A DNA stretch of 46,313 nucleotides from Sphingobacteriales bacterium 44-15 (GTDB taxonomy: Bacteria > Bacteroidota > Bacteroidia > Chitinophagales > Chitinophagaceae). The translations under genes were made by a program, and so were the position numbers. Location of the stretch: contig MKWG01000045.1 in assembly GCA_001899685.1 (NCBI GenBank), positions 1 through 46,313 of the forward strand. The letters are read 5' to 3'. The notes below the pieces were generated by a model. The model saw only the letters and a program-made list of their open reading frames with translations. It did no database searches and was not told the origin of the DNA. Below are positions 1-44,270 of this stretch, piece after piece. Position 1 is the first letter of the stretch; every line of letters starts with the position of its first letter.

Positions 1-2
1 TG

Positions 3-1031
3 TATATTTACGTGAGCAACGAAAGTCCCGTTGACGTGTTCTTTGACAACCTGCAGGTGATCCATACGAGGGGAGCTATACTGGAGGAAACGCATTATTA
101 TCCGTTCGGACTGACAATGGCAGGGATATCATCCAAAGCACTAAATAACTCTCCAGCAAATAGATTTAAGTTTAGTGGAAAAGAACTACAGTCAAATGAG
201 TTCAGTGATAATAGTGGCTTAGAATTATACGACTTTGGTGCAAGAAATTATGATCCACAAATAGGTAGATGGCATGCAATTGACCCATTGGCTGATGTAA
301 ATAGAAAGTGGAGCCCTTATGTTTATGGAGTAAATAACCCATTGAGGTTTATTGATCCGGATGGAATGGATGTAGAGGATATAAATGGTGGTGTTAGGTA
401 TACTGGAATTGATGCGCAGAATGCATTCCGCCAACTGCAATCAATGCAAAGATCGCGAGACGATGATAAAGATAATCCAGATAAAAATAAAAGGGTCTTA
501 ATGATTGGAGGTGCTGATTTATTTTTAACAGGACTATCTGATGAAACGAAAAAAATTATGGATGGAATAGATATGGATAACATATCGGAAAAGAAAGCAT
601 ATAATTATCCATATTTTTTTGAAGGCGATAATGATTTCATTAAAAAAGTAGTTAAAGACATACAACAAAATTATACAGAAGGTCAGCAAATTGTATTATA
701 CGGATATAGTAAGGGCGGGGAACTCACATTAAAAATATCAAGGGAGTTAAAAAAATTAGGTATTCCGATAGAATTGCTAATTACAGTTGATGTTGCTAAT
801 GGCCCAAAATCTAAGAGTATTGATAGAAGTGTACCTGACAACGTAAAAGAAAATAGAAACTTTTATCAAACTGAAGCAGGGTCTTTCCCTAAACCACCAT
901 CTTTTGGTGCTCCTAATATGGGAGCTAATGTTTTTAACGTTAATCAAACGGGATTAGCCAATCATTCTGATATTGATGAGTATAATATCACTAACGTTAT
1001 TAATCTTATTAATGCTGTAATAAATAGATAG
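3..1031 (+). CDS. RHS repeat protein, C-terminal part with an alpha/beta-hydrolase-like toxin tip (5' end outside the window)
   Basis: The frame is open to the left edge, so the gene is cut by the window and the GTG at base 12 is not a real start. Numbering from base 12, residues 25-115 are the RHS core ([39 protein letters not shown]). In the family this core caps a shell that encloses the toxin. The following ~220 residues are the variable tip. They contain GYSKGG with Ser233 as a nucleophile elbow, Asp260 in VDVANGP and His318 in ANHSDID. That order and spacing fit a lipase/esterase-type Ser-Asp-His triad. I infer a secreted hydrolase effector; the substrate cannot be read from the sequence. 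A small membrane-protein gene starts two bases after the stop. The tip is AT-rich, as is usual for exchanged toxin ends. Confidence 0.85.
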
Positions 1032-8154: not shown

Positions 8155-8910
8155 ATGGAATTATTTAAATCTGGAAATCCTACCCTTACCGAAAAAATGT
8201 TTCAGTCTGCGCTCACGGGCGACAGGAGTGATGTAATGACGGTAAAAGGTACGCTTAATAAATTTGGGTTCATGTTCCTGATGGTGATGGCTTCCGCCTT
8301 CTTCAGCTGGTACAGCTTCAATAAAGGTGTGGATGTTACACCGTATATGTGGGGTGGCGCTATCGGAGGGTTGGTTGTAGCGCTCGTTATTGTATTCAAA
8401 AAGACCTGGGCGCCATACCTGGCTCCTGCTTATGCTTTGCTGGAGGGGCTTTTTGTGGGCGGCATATCTGCCTACTATAATTACGCTTTTGAGGCCAAGG
8501 CGCCTTTTATAATTGTGCAGGCAGTGGGGCTCACTTTCGGTGTTGCCATAGCCATGTTCATCCTGTACAATATGCGCATTATCCGTGCCACGGAAACCTT
8601 TAAGTCTGTGATCATCACTGCTACTGCGGGTATCGCTATTTTCTACCTTATCACCATTGTGCTCGGCTTTTTTGGTATAGATATTCCTTTCATTCACCAG
8701 GGCAGCACATTCGGCATTATTTTCTCGCTTGTGGTGGTAGGTATAGCAGCGCTCAATCTCATTCTTGATTTCGACATGATCGAAAAAGGATCTGATGCCG
8801 GCGCCCCGAAATATATGGAATGGTATGGTGCGTTTGGGCTGCTGGTAACTATAGTTTGGTTGTATCTTGAGATACTCAGGTTGTTAGCCAAAATGAACAG
8901 CAGGAAATAA
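8155..8910 (+). CDS. Bax inhibitor-1 / YccA family membrane protein
   Basis: This 251-residue integral membrane protein has about seven hydrophobic segments after a polar N-terminus of ~35 residues (FKSGNPTLTEKMFQ). The family features seen are YALLEGLFVGGISAYYN, ETFKSVIITATAGIAIFYL, LNLILDFDMIEKG and the terminal KYMEWYGAFGLLVTIVWLYLEILRLL. The Asp pair in LDFDMIE fits the pH-sensing di-aspartyl of BI-1/YetJ-type proteins, which conduct calcium; activity in this organism is inferred only. It is divergent from korA across a 106-base gap and appears monocistronic, with a palindromic repeat 12 bases after its stop. Confidence 0.9.
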   Translation: MELFKSGNPTLTEKMFQSALTGDRSDVMTVKGTLNKFGFMFLMVMASAFFSWYSFNKGVDVTPYMWGGAIGGLVVALVIVFKKTWAPYLAPAYALLEGLFVGGISAYYNYAFEAKAPFIIVQAVGLTFGVAIAMFILYNMRIIRATETFKSVIITATAGIAIFYLITIVLGFFGIDIPFIHQGSTFGIIFSLVVVGIAALNLILDFDMIEKGSDAGAPKYMEWYGAFGLLVTIVWLYLEILRLLAKMNSRK

Positions 8911-8921
8911 AATGGGGAATG

Positions 8922-8982
8922 ATAGCCACGAATGCACGAATATATGATGCATTTGATTTTTTATTCGTGCATTCGTGGCTAT
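8922..8982. repeat. REP-like palindrome, copy A
   Basis: A perfect 20-bp inverted repeat (8922-8941 and 8963-8982, core GCCACGAATGCACGAAT) encloses a 21-base spacer. It sits between the Bax-inhibitor-1 gene and the GxxExxY gene and could also act as a terminator. Confidence 0.9.
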
Positions 8983-9037
8983 TGTATTCATAGATCATTC
9001 TTGCTTGCGGACCGCCGGAATTCGTAGCTATTCTTTT

Positions 9038-9412
9038 TTAAAATACTAATCTTTTATAATGTAGCTTCAGCTCTCCGAAATTCACAATCAATGCTAACCT
9101 GTTTCCCGATACTTTTAGATAATTGATCGCTTGTGCTATACTTTCTTCCGGAATTCCTGTTATTGCTTTTACTTCTAAAATAACGTTGCCAAAAGCTATA
9201 AAATCAGCGAAGAAGTTGTGTGGGAGAATAATGTCTTTATAATGTACATCATATCTTTTTTCTCTTTCATAAGGTATGCCGGCTTTTAAAAATTCATATT
9301 CTAAAGCATCTTTATATACAATCTCCAAAAAGCCAGGACCAAGGTTATTATGTACGTCCATGCAGATACCAATGATCTGATAGCTTTCGTCTTTAAAAAG
9401 AATTGCCGGCAT
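9038..9412 (-). CDS. GxxExxY protein
   Basis: I start at the ATG at 9412 (MPAILFKDESYQIIG...), giving 124 residues. The longer frame to 9568 only translates the neighbouring palindrome (PRMHECIF). The namesake motif is present as LGPGFLEIVYKDALEYEF. FFADFIAFGNVILEVKAI, with a distal D...E-x-K arrangement, suggests a PD-(D/E)XK nuclease-like fold, and AQAINYLKVSGNRLALIVNFG is typical of the C-terminal half. The molecular role is not established; a nuclease is inferred from the fold motif. Palindrome copies A and B lie close on both sides (56 and 76 bases away). Confidence 0.85.
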   Translation of the reverse strand: MPAILFKDESYQIIGICMDVHNNLGPGFLEIVYKDALEYEFLKAGIPYEREKRYDVHYKDIILPHNFFADFIAFGNVILEVKAITGIPEESIAQAINYLKVSGNRLALIVNFGELKLHYKRLVF

Positions 9413-9487
9413 TTTCTTAGGTTTTAGCTTGTATAAAAATAAGCTGAATGCCATAAAATGCAGGAATAAATTTTTTAGATACAACAA

Positions 9488-9541
9488 AGCCACGAATGCA
9501 CGAATAAATATATTAAAAATACATTCGTGCATTCGTGGCTT
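9488..9541. repeat. REP-like palindrome, copy B
   Basis: A perfect 18-bp inverted repeat (9488-9505 and 9523-9540) encloses a 17-base spacer. The 28 bases at 9478-9505 are identical to 44172-44199. Its right arm ends on the first base of the pgl stop codon. Confidence 0.9.
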
Positions 9542-10265
9542 ATCTTCCCAGCAAAGCGGCGCCATCATTGTCTGTAAACCAGTGGAGTTCCCCGGAAGAA
9601 GGCTGTATCACCTGCGAAGGATAAAGGTCGGGGTTATATTTTCCTTCCAGCACTTCATAAAGCGCATGCGCTTTTGCTGCGCCGAAGGCCAGGAAGGCTA
9701 CGCGTGCGGCCCTGTTTACTATGGGAGCCGTGAGCGTTATGCGAAACATTTGCTGCGGAGCAAGGTAAAATGCACTTACCCAGGCTTTCTTTTCGTGCAC
9801 CACTGCTGTGCCAGGAAAAAGAGAAAGCGTATGCCCGTCGTCTCCCATTCCCGAAAGTACAAGATCAAAGCTTTGGCCTTCACCGGTAAAATAGGTTCTT
9901 AATACCTGCTCGTATTCCGCGGCAGCTTTGTCCGGATCAATATCTGTGCGCATGACATGCACCTGCGACGCTGCCACCGGCACTTTATTGAGAAGATGCT
10001 CATAAGTCATTTTTGCATTGTTCCTGTCGTCGTCGAAAGGAACAGCACGTTCATCTCCCCAGAAAAAATGCAGCTTTTCCCAGGCTATGCGGCTGCTGTA
10101 AGGAGCGCCTGCCAGCAAGTCGTATAACGCCTTTGGAGAGCTGCCGCCGGTTAATACCCAGGTAAACCGGTCTTTTTTTGAAAGGATGGATTCAATATAG
10201 GCTGTTATCCATTCTGCCAGCTCCTGGCTTACCGCCGCAGGGTCTTTTTGGATATGGAGCGTCAT
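9540..10265 (-). CDS. pgl: 6-phosphogluconolactonase
   Basis: This cytoplasmic enzyme hydrolyses 6-phosphoglucono-delta-lactone to 6-phosphogluconate, step two of the oxidative pentose-phosphate pathway. The 241 residues show VLTGGSSPKALYDLL (phosphate binding), FFWGDERAVPFDDDRNN and LSGMGDDGHTLSLFPG, the conserved blocks of the DevB/Pgl family. The length is normal. It is the last gene of gnd-zwf-pgl; a 107-base gap containing palindrome copy C separates it from zwf. Its stop codon overlaps palindrome copy B, so the transcript would end in a stable stem-loop. Confidence 0.95.
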   Translation of the reverse strand: MTLHIQKDPAAVSQELAEWITAYIESILSKKDRFTWVLTGGSSPKALYDLLAGAPYSSRIAWEKLHFFWGDERAVPFDDDRNNAKMTYEHLLNKVPVAASQVHVMRTDIDPDKAAAEYEQVLRTYFTGEGQSFDLVLSGMGDDGHTLSLFPGTAVVHEKKAWVSAFYLAPQQMFRITLTAPIVNRAARVAFLAFGAAKAHALYEVLEGKYNPDLYPSQVIQPSSGELHWFTDNDGAALLGR

Positions 10266-10308
10266 AATAAGTAGGAATTACTGTTTAGCGATCCAATATA
10301 TTTTTTAT

Positions 10309-10366
10309 GCCACGAATGCACGAATAAAGGAATCAAAATACTATTAAATATTCGTGCATTCGTCGC
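10309..10366. repeat. REP-like palindrome, copy C, between zwf and pgl
   Basis: Arms 10309-10325 and 10350-10366 pair over 17 bases with one mismatch (CGTCGC instead of CGTGGC). Lying inside the operon, it may stabilise the zwf message or reduce read-through into pgl. Confidence 0.85.
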
Positions 10367-10372
10367 TGTATA

Positions 10373-11887
10373 TTATTCCTCATGCGGCTGTGAAAGCGTC
10401 AGCCAGTTAAAGCCGTCTCTTGCTATAAGCGCTTCTGCATCTTCAGGTCCCCAGGAGGCCGGAAGGTAATTGGGAAAATCAACGGGTACTCTTGTTTCCC
10501 AGGTTTCCAGTATCGGCATAATGATCTTCCAGGCGGCCTCTACCTGGTCGGCACGCATAAACAGGGTTGCATTGCCTTCCATAACGTCAAGCAGGAGCGT
10601 TTCATAAGCTTCCGGCTCATGTTCATCGTAGGCTTCATCGTAATTAAAGATCATATCCACGGGGCTCAGCACAAGATTTTGCCCGGGTCGCTTGGCCTGG
10701 AAACGCAGGCGGATATCCATTTCAGGCTGAATGCTGATAGTAAGCCGGTTAGGCCGCCAGCTGTTTGCCGCCTCAGGCGGAAAAGCGAAGCTGGGGGCTT
10801 TTCTGAACTGGATAGTGATAATGGTGCTCTTGCTGTTCATCCGTTTGCCGGTACGCACATAAAAGGGAACACCCTGCCAGCGCCAGTTGTCTATATAAAA
10901 TTTAACCGCTGCAAAGGTTTCCACGTTGGATTGCGGGCTCACATTTTTTTCCTGGCGGTACCCTGCTACTTTATCACCATGCATCCAGCCTTCGGCATAC
11001 TGACCCCTTACGGCATAATCCTGCACTTCGCCCGGGTCAATGCGGCGGATGGCGTTCAGCACATCCACTTTTTTATTCCTGATCTCGTTGGCGTCAAAAG
11101 ATACGGGAGCTTCCATGGCAACCATGCACAATAGCTGCAGCATGTGATTTTGCACCATATCGCGCAATGCGCCTGATTTCTCGTAATAAGCGCCGCGGTT
11201 TTCCGCGCCTACCGTTTCTGCGGCAGTGATCTGTATATTCTCAATGTAATTGCGGTTCCATATCGGTTCAAAAAGGGCGTTGGCAAAGCGCAGCGCCAGT
11301 ATGTTCTGCACTGTTTCTTTTCCCAGGTAATGGTCAATGCGGAAGATCTGGTTTTCATCAAACATGGTGCCCAGCAGCCGGTTGAGCTCCTGTGCACTGG
11401 CAAGATCATGCCCAAACGGCTTTTCCACCACAATACGTGTACATTTGGTATCTGCACAGATATTAAGAGGACCGAGCTTGGAAGCAATATCAGGCACAAG
11501 CTGTGGTGCAACGGCCATGTAAAAGATAACATTCGGATGTTCTCCGTATTCCTTTTCCTTTGCTTTTACCAGGTCGCTGATCTTTGAGTATGAAGCCGCA
11601 TCTTCTCCGTCCATCTGCAGGTAGCCGATGTGTTGGGAAAAAGCCTGCCATTCGCCGTTGGCCTCCTCTTTTCTTCTTGAAAATTTTTTGATCCCTTCGA
11701 GGAGGTGATTGCGGTAGGATTCATCTGTATATTCAGACCGGCCGATCCCCACAATACCGAACTTCTCAGGCATCCAGTCGTCTAAAAACAAATTATACAG
11801 GGCAGGCGTTAGTTTGCGGAGATTCAGGTCTCCGCTCCCGCCAAAAATAAAAATAAGAGAAGCGGGTGGGCGCTTATGATTTTGCAT
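10373..11887 (-). CDS. zwf: glucose-6-phosphate 1-dehydrogenase
   Basis: It oxidises glucose 6-phosphate to 6-phosphogluconolactone with NAD(P)+. The 504-residue chain begins with the nucleotide-binding [21 protein letters not shown] (residues ~13-33). It has [15 protein letters not shown], the active-site [21 protein letters not shown], and the C-terminal [16 protein letters not shown] and PDAYE-like [22 protein letters not shown] blocks. GGSGDL takes the place of the usual GASGDL. Length and motifs are complete. It follows gnd by 27 bases and is clearly in the same operon. Confidence 0.97.
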
Positions 11888-44171: not shown

Positions 44172-44224
44172 GATACAACAAAGCCACGAATGCACGAATG
44201 TATTTTTATTAGTGCATTCGTGGC
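44172..44224. repeat. REP-like palindrome, copy D (partly decayed)
   Basis: Arms GCCACGAATGCAC (44183-44195) and GTGCATTCGTGGC (44212-44224) pair perfectly over 13 bases; the inner bases have diverged. Bases 44172-44199 equal 9478-9505. A further half-copy, TTTCGTGGCTAT, follows at 44231. It lies just after the barrel gene. Confidence 0.85.
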
Positions 44225-44270
44225 GATGTTTTTCGTGGCTATATCTTCATGGTATAAATAGATATTTGGC

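Follow-up and report, generated by a model that had tools for sequence, protein, structure and literature searches.

GxxExxY genes and their accompanying palindromic repeats: a possible REPtron-like pairing built on a different enzyme

The stretch of DNA considered here (46,313 nt, called the window throughout) carries a short gene of the GxxExxY family set between two palindromes of one kind, with a third close by and a fourth far off. The first-pass annotation likened this layout to a REPtron lacking its Y1 transposase, which raises the question whether the gene and the palindromes are partners, and if so, how widely the partnership extends. No description of a GxxExxY-palindrome pairing was found in open-licence PubMed Central, which is weak evidence of its absence in print; the open-licence papers that name GxxExxY (e.g. 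PMC8934634) include none on repeats, so far as their titles tell.

The palindromes and the gene between them

Arms of the type GCCACGAATGCACGAAT occur eight times in the window at up to three mismatches, where shuffled sequence gave a mean of 0.14 and at most one, and they pair into palindromes A to D (Table 1), all four of which fold as single-stranded DNA into hairpins of -15.7 to -22.7 kcal/mol (z -5.9 to -10.7). The palindromes proposed from the bare sequence, three within 1.5 kb and one distant, are on this evidence real. Palindrome D lies 34 kb from the others, and the position originally given for it, 44172, is right as the start of the 28 bases identical to B, which comprise GATACAACAAA and an arm; the hairpin proper begins later. 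When 62 points were placed uniformly, a triple within 1,442 bp arose in 132 of 20,000 simulations; the copies are intergenic, and points restricted to such DNA would form triples more often. In 10 other species of the genus the pgl locus has no hairpin of the palindrome C type. A known RNA family was considered for the hairpins and rejected, the search having returned three weak matches to miRNA models, far below their gathering scores. Elsewhere in the window, positions 1558-1636 and 2476-2554 form a 79-base direct repeat (96% identical), within which 1618-1644 has an inverted copy at 1853-1879.

Table 1. Palindromes, genes and associated elements of the window
Feature	Position	Strand	Arm pair (up to 3 mismatches)	Remarks
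Bax-inhibitor-1-like gene	8155..8910	+		context
Palindrome A	8922..8982	.	8925+/8963-	stem 21 bp, perfect; loop 19 nt
Non-arm module	8983..9037	.		from palindrome A to the GxxExxY stop codon
GxxExxY gene	9038..9412	-		124 aa; TIGR04256 / PF13366; start at 9412 inferred from homologs
Linker GATACAACAAA	9478..9488	.		also in copy D; variants in many dispersed copies
Palindrome B	9488..9541	.	9489+/9523-	abuts pgl stop codon
6-phosphogluconolactonase-type gene (pgl)	9540..10265	-		context
Palindrome C	10309..10366	.	10309+/10350- (1 mismatch)	pgl-zwf intergenic
Glucose-6-phosphate dehydrogenase gene (zwf)	10373..11887	-		context
Palindrome D	44172..44228	.	44183+/44208- (1 mismatch)	hairpin 44183-44224, plus 28-base stretch in common with B

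The bracketed gene had been named as a member of the GxxExxY family, and its scores place it there firmly: 128 bits against TIGR04256 (cut-off 35) and 115.7 against PF13366 (cut-off 22). The longer open reading frame, to 9568, is taken simply to run through palindrome B, since homologs start at the position in Table 1. Palindromes A and B bracket the gene with one complete hairpin on each side. PADLOC gave no known defence gene for it, PHROGs returned two insignificant matches only (E 0.035 and 0.37), and a scan of viral contigs found no relative, so that carriage by phage was rejected.

The structure model of the encoded protein has a pLDDT of 96. Its fold is matched best by chains of 4ic1 (SSO0001), which is presumably a Cas4 protein, at E 5e-4 and a TM-score of 0.60, and these are the only matches at E ≤0.001; next come lambda exonuclease, LHK-Exo, AddAB and the Cas4 protein Pcal_0546 (E 0.003-0.03). 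No solved structure was matched by the window protein at the sequence level. Across 167 proteins the putative active-site residues E30, D70, E80 and K82 are conserved in 166, 165, 167 and 166 respectively, G27, Y33 and Y98 in 165-167, and Q94 in 143; the motif Q94xxxY98 is thus conserved among GxxExxY proteins, and QxxxY is a motif of RecB and Cas4. The model and these residues point to a conserved minimal PD-(D/E)XK fold nearest to Cas4 and lambda exonuclease, with predicted nuclease activity; it would share with the Cas4, lambda exonuclease and RecB-type nucleases the fold, E30, D70, E80-x-K82 and Q94xxxY98, and differs from them in having so few residues. The GxxExxY orthologs are under purifying selection, dN/dS being 0.02-0.16 in the 13 of 17 ortholog pairs that gave usable values (synonymous sites are near saturation in some).

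Throughout the genome to which the window belongs, arms at up to two mismatches number 140 (75 + 65), against none for the reversed control. Clustering covered 100 of the 140 arm places and gave 62 clusters, so that there are at least 62. Arms lying no more than 60 nt apart (up to three mismatches) form 41 pairs of an arm followed by an inverted arm and none in the opposite order, with loops of 8 to 40 nt. Only 2 of the 58 listed clusters outside the window lie inside an open reading frame of at least 150 aa, compared with 1,353 of 1,575 random places, the other 56 being intergenic. With the arms masked, sequence resembling the module at palindrome A also adjoins 23 of 58 other palindrome loci; among these 58 dispersed copies the upstream flank is shared with 7 and the outer flanks with 2 and 1, and the flanks of four relatives from the genus matched the dispersed copies weakly (0 to 9 of 58). 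Five loci (L088, L089, L093, L099, L140) belong to a palindrome class of about 206 bp that is apparently nested in an element of the MITE type, whose ends resemble AGGGGCTGCTG and in which the arms have fixed positions.

Repeat types follow GxxExxY subfamilies

Five GxxExxY genes are present in the window's own genome, and the window palindrome lies within 1.5 kb of only one of them, the window's; A and B are the only ones among the 62 listed clusters that flank that gene. A tie between GxxExxY genes in general and this exact palindrome was rejected on these grounds, four of the five genes being without it. The link was sought through relatives of the window protein. For the genus, 40 stretches around GxxExxY matches were sampled from ten other species (52 matches including fragments, in eleven species). 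Five genes there (L144, L152, L154, L158, L166) encode products with 70-75% identity to the window protein, and all five have the arm type on both sides, the arms of L166 reading CACAGAT on both sides in place of CACGAAT. Of the remaining 38 GxxExxY genes from the genus, four of them from the own genome, 36 have nothing that matches the relaxed arm pattern in the nearest 400 bp; the two exceptions have one poor match (L170) and a different motif (L156).

For a wider sample, an alignment of six proteins served as query against one genome per species for 84,980 species, loci being chosen by protein only, and the best 80 of 503 relatives were kept: 57 from Bacteroidota, 10 from Ignavibacteriota, 5 from Chlorobiota, 3 from Calditrichota, one each from Acidobacteriota and Planctomycetota, and 3 unplaced. 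An arm of the GCCACGAATGCACGAAT type lies within 400 bp of 77 of these 80 best relatives (upstream in 72, downstream in 74, on both sides in 69). Arm density is 40 times higher near the genes (408 matches in 61,444 bases) than far from them (92 in 550,455), where the reversed control gave 0 and 7 matches respectively. When the five loci of the query genus are left out and shared sites are counted once, an arm is near 60 of 63 genes. Each arm of this subfamily consists of two heptamers of the CAC type. The stricter test for a near-perfect hairpin succeeded beside 26 of the 80 only, because many arms are single, imperfect or in direct arrays. At L200 and L253 the gene is flanked by direct arrays of arms, with a period of 22 or 28 bp and no hairpins, and at L186 what appear to be degenerate extra GxxExxY copies stand in tandem around an intact gene.

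The link joins a subfamily of GxxExxY to the repeat type proper to it, and not the family as a whole to the window palindrome. The association that had been suggested holds for the subfamily far beyond the species, and fails for the family at large. It had also been said that GxxExxY genes with no palindrome nearby would count against the idea; four such paralogs do exist in the own genome, yet two of them carry other motifs of the CAC type, CACAGAG with a spacer of 3 (L032) and CGCAAAG with a spacer of 1 (L034), where the window has CACGAAT with a spacer of 1.

Other subfamilies have short repeated motifs of their own, in most cases inverted on the two sides of the gene. A loose motif, defined as two heptamers C[AG]C[AGT][AG]A[GT] with 1-3 bases between them, lies no more than 400 bp from the gene in 24 of 28 cases from the phylum (about 50-71% identity), in 16 of 26 from the search for relatives and in 11 of 38 from the rest of the genus, the last two sets overlapping; its density near the genes is 10 to 18 times that in farther DNA, and the reversed controls gave 0, 3 and 1 near matches. 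Some subfamilies have quite different motifs, for example TGTCTGAACCGGGATT (L031). A motif-free test compared repeats between 250-bp flanks with a threshold set at the 99th percentile of 381 random places. Inverted repeats exceeded it at 56 of 77 subfamily loci, 26 of 29 phylum loci (the window locus included), 20 of 37 other loci of the genus and 10 of 18 other relatives; direct repeats did so at 56, 9, 17 and 6 loci of the corresponding sets, and are thus as frequent as inverted ones in the subfamily. Twenty further genes gave inverted repeats at 15, and at 18 with direct repeats counted. Mispaired flanks of different loci have a 99th percentile of 20.0 against 13.5 for random places; such high scores are expected if loci share repeats, so the random-place threshold is lenient.

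Repeat labels were placed on a tree of 167 proteins, 124 of them with arms, and compared with 200 shuffles. The last base of the heptamer changes 4 times on the protein tree (shuffled mean 13.5, minimum 11), the spacer 13 times (mean 33.8, minimum 30) and the middle dinucleotide 40 times (mean 58.5, minimum 52). The end base of the motif and its spacing follow the GxxExxY protein tree. Paralogs within one genome differ in repeat type, and one genome (G010) has two of the same heptamer type with different spacers.

Occupied sites, empty sites and palindromes without a gene

Within one genus, taken to be Flavobacterium, the gene can be seen present and absent at a single orthologous site, which lies between a UPF0004/radical SAM/TRAM gene, presumably MiaB-like, and a sigma-54 activator gene. 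Several repeat types occur there across species, with both ends matching in each, around elements of 435-521 bp (L316 scored 600). Over the two sites read, the elements measure 433-521 bp apart from L316, and GxxExxY is the sole gene between the repeats. At the MiaB-like site, 30 species loci were read out of 61 genomes matched: the gene is present in 11 (two partial, one with a stop codon) and was not found in 19, two of which retain a lone repeat end. These lone ends (L315, L318), of the form AATCTGCGAATTTGCGGTT, have a relic-like appearance. Five loci at this site (L299, L300, L302, L305, L310) have no GxxExxY gene and carry other tandem heptads instead (TTTCAGG TTTCAAG TTTCAGG or similar) together with their complement. 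A target-site duplication was not established there, occupied and empty species being too diverged for their junctions to be aligned; apparent inversion of elements at orthologous sites was traced to the loci being in contig orientation.

Counting palindromes and genes across genomes, as the first-pass annotation had suggested, gave a mixed answer. Genomes of the genus with a subfamily gene hold 12, 41, 52, 56 and 140 arms, against 0, 0, 3, 7, 7, 11 and 29 in those without. Across 395 genomes of the phylum, counted by hand, at least ten GCCRCDRATNCRCDRAT arms are present in 10 of 36 with a GxxExxY protein of at least 50% identity and in 4 of 359 without (Fisher p 9e-9, shared ancestry ignored). 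Co-occurrence is thus enriched, but 8 of the 14 arm-rich genomes showed no matching gene among those read, so that the outcome named beforehand as speaking against the idea, palindromes without the gene, occurs in part. The other six (G000, G087, G224, G260, G280, G375) have one beside the arms; the GxxExxY genes read in G081, G256, G299 and G367 have repeats of a different type, and in G077, G145, G276 and G319 there is no GxxExxY of at least 50% identity. Among the genomes behind the subfamily loci, of which 12 of 80 were tried, exact arms occur in 11, numbering 2 to 224 (reversed control 0), the largest number coming from tandem arrays.

What maintains and moves the repeats

The reading preferred here, with confidence a little short of even, is that GxxExxY proteins and palindromes together make up a system of the REPtron kind, with another enzyme at its core. 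The protein would recognise its own motif, which would probably be presented in a hairpin or by two paired ends, and cutting there would lead to hairpins being copied or moved at a low rate. The gene itself would mostly stay put and be kept by selection, as RAYTs are, and the scattered hairpins would be gene-less, MITE-like derivatives. Recognition is supported because repeat type co-varies with the protein, and cutting because the active site is conserved; mobilisation is an inference. Against this reading, no transposition was seen, palindromes appear orphaned in eight arm-rich genomes, only two of the 62 listed clusters of the own genome flank the gene, and, weightiest of all, a set of unrelated genes turned out to share the architecture. 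Direct repeats as frequent as inverted ones in the subfamily, the high scores of mispaired flanks, the weak matches between relatives' flanks and the dispersed copies, the lack of an established target-site duplication and the negative scan of viral contigs also count against it.

That set, PF05635 four-helix-bundle genes known as 23S rRNA IVPs (L329-L358), was intended as a negative control. It was negative for CAC heptamers (0 of 30 loci) and unexpectedly positive for inverted tandem heptads (22 of 30, with direct ones in 3). The repeat units are mostly 7 bp long, among them TTGGATG, GGGCTGT, TTAGGTG, AGCTATC and GTATTAA; a search of the open-licence literature for IVPs with inverted repeats gave only papers unrelated by title. 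Since these genes, which do not encode nucleases, share the architecture, a bracketed gene need not be a mobiliser. Two options follow: each of these unrelated proteins is the partner of its own repeats, or some third agent carries the two of them as cargo. The second option, that tandem-motif inverted repeats are moved by another enzyme while small genes such as GxxExxY and the four-helix-bundle genes ride inside, the protein perhaps binding the repeat without moving it, is considered unlikely, if to be taken seriously. The PF05635 loci speak for it, and so do the gene-less palindromes, which exceed the genes in number and turn up in genomes that showed no matching gene; a shared outside enzyme, however, predicts neither that repeat type tracks the GxxExxY tree nor that it differs between paralogs of one genome, and GxxExxY is alone between the repeats at both sites read.

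A broader proposal may be put forward, doubtful as it is: GxxExxY genes may constitute a large undescribed class of minimal mobile elements. Their only recombinase would be a PD-(D/E)XK nuclease of some 125 residues, similar to Cas4 and lambda exonuclease, working on ends composed of short motifs in tandem, with a different motif read by each subfamily. The scattered CAC-type palindromes of many Bacteroidota and related genomes would be their gene-less offspring, and PF05635 with its own heptads would represent another such system, running in parallel and with ends of like architecture.

An improbable explanation is homing, in which the nuclease cuts palindromic motif sites and its gene sits inside one, so that flanking arms are half-sites and gene-less hairpins are unoccupied targets. 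PD-(D/E)XK homing endonucleases are known, simple cases of an arm, a gene and an inverted arm exist (L276, L280, L282), and different variants occupy one orthologous site. Homing should fill sites, yet this genome has a single gene of the kind for its 62 or more palindrome clusters; the window has a complete hairpin on each side and no half-site, and the spread of hairpins would be left unexplained.

It is very improbable that the hairpins are transcription terminators or mRNA-stabilising elements, the gene being an unrelated neighbour or regulating itself through them. The copies are intergenic (of 55 dispersed ones, 24 lie between convergent, 26 between tandem and 5 between divergent genes) and form strong hairpins, but the direct heptamer arrays at L200 and L253 are unable to form any such hairpin, and control genes lack inverted flanks (pgl 0 of 9, sigma-54 0 of 29). 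A heptamer pair does occur near 8 of the 29 sigma-54 loci, and there a GxxExxY gene adjoins except at L318, with its lone end. A terminator scan of 8800-10500 found none, with loops of 3-8 only and hence blind to most of these hairpins. Least credible of all is mobilisation by host Y1 (HUH) transposases as in true REPtrons: the genome has three PF01797 genes, but none is bracketed by palindromes (0, 0 and 1 arms at up to four mismatches at L036, L037 and L038), and GTAG or CGTC lies within 8 nt of the hairpin foot in 0 of 41 own-genome hairpins.

The preferred, REPtron-like reading can be set beside known systems. With REPtrons and REPIN-RAYT systems (excerpts of PMC8049555, PMC8266576, PMC3733652 and PMC3116915 were compared) the present case shares a mostly single-copy gene bracketed by palindromes, many dispersed, gene-less copies in intergenic DNA, and genes and palindromes that form matched pairs. 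It differs in having a PD-(D/E)XK superfamily enzyme in place of an HUH Y1 transposase, no GTAG/CGTC tag, and arms made of tandem heptamers. The likeness to a REPtron without the transposase, as first remarked, survives: the gene is PF13366/TIGR04256, the Y1 genes lie elsewhere, and arms on both sides are general among the best relatives. By analogy, the system appears to work like a REPtron without being one. REPINs, according to the excerpt of PMC8049555, are also found in E. coli genomes without RAYT. TIRtrons, described in the excerpt of PMC3733652 as Y1 transposase genes between long terminal inverted repeats that in some genomes also form dispersed families, likewise have a gene between inverted repeats that are also dispersed, and differ in the enzyme and in lacking the tandem short motifs seen here. 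MITEs and small insertion sequences resemble the present elements in their short inverted repeats, gene-less copies and presence or absence between species at one site, whereas here there is no classical transposase and no established target-site duplication; terminal inverted repeats do surround the gene, as in insertion sequences, at the two sites read and at the phylum loci that passed the motif-free test, the window having a full hairpin on each side.

A function has yet to be settled for GxxExxY proteins, widespread though they are (in 42 of 58 relatives), and a repeat partner specific to each subfamily leads directly to the question of whether they bind and cut their own motif. If the preferred reading is true, a class of intergenic palindromes in Bacteroidota and their relatives would be explained, and the REPtron way of life would have arisen with an unrelated nuclease; the parallel with PF05635 hints at a wider principle.
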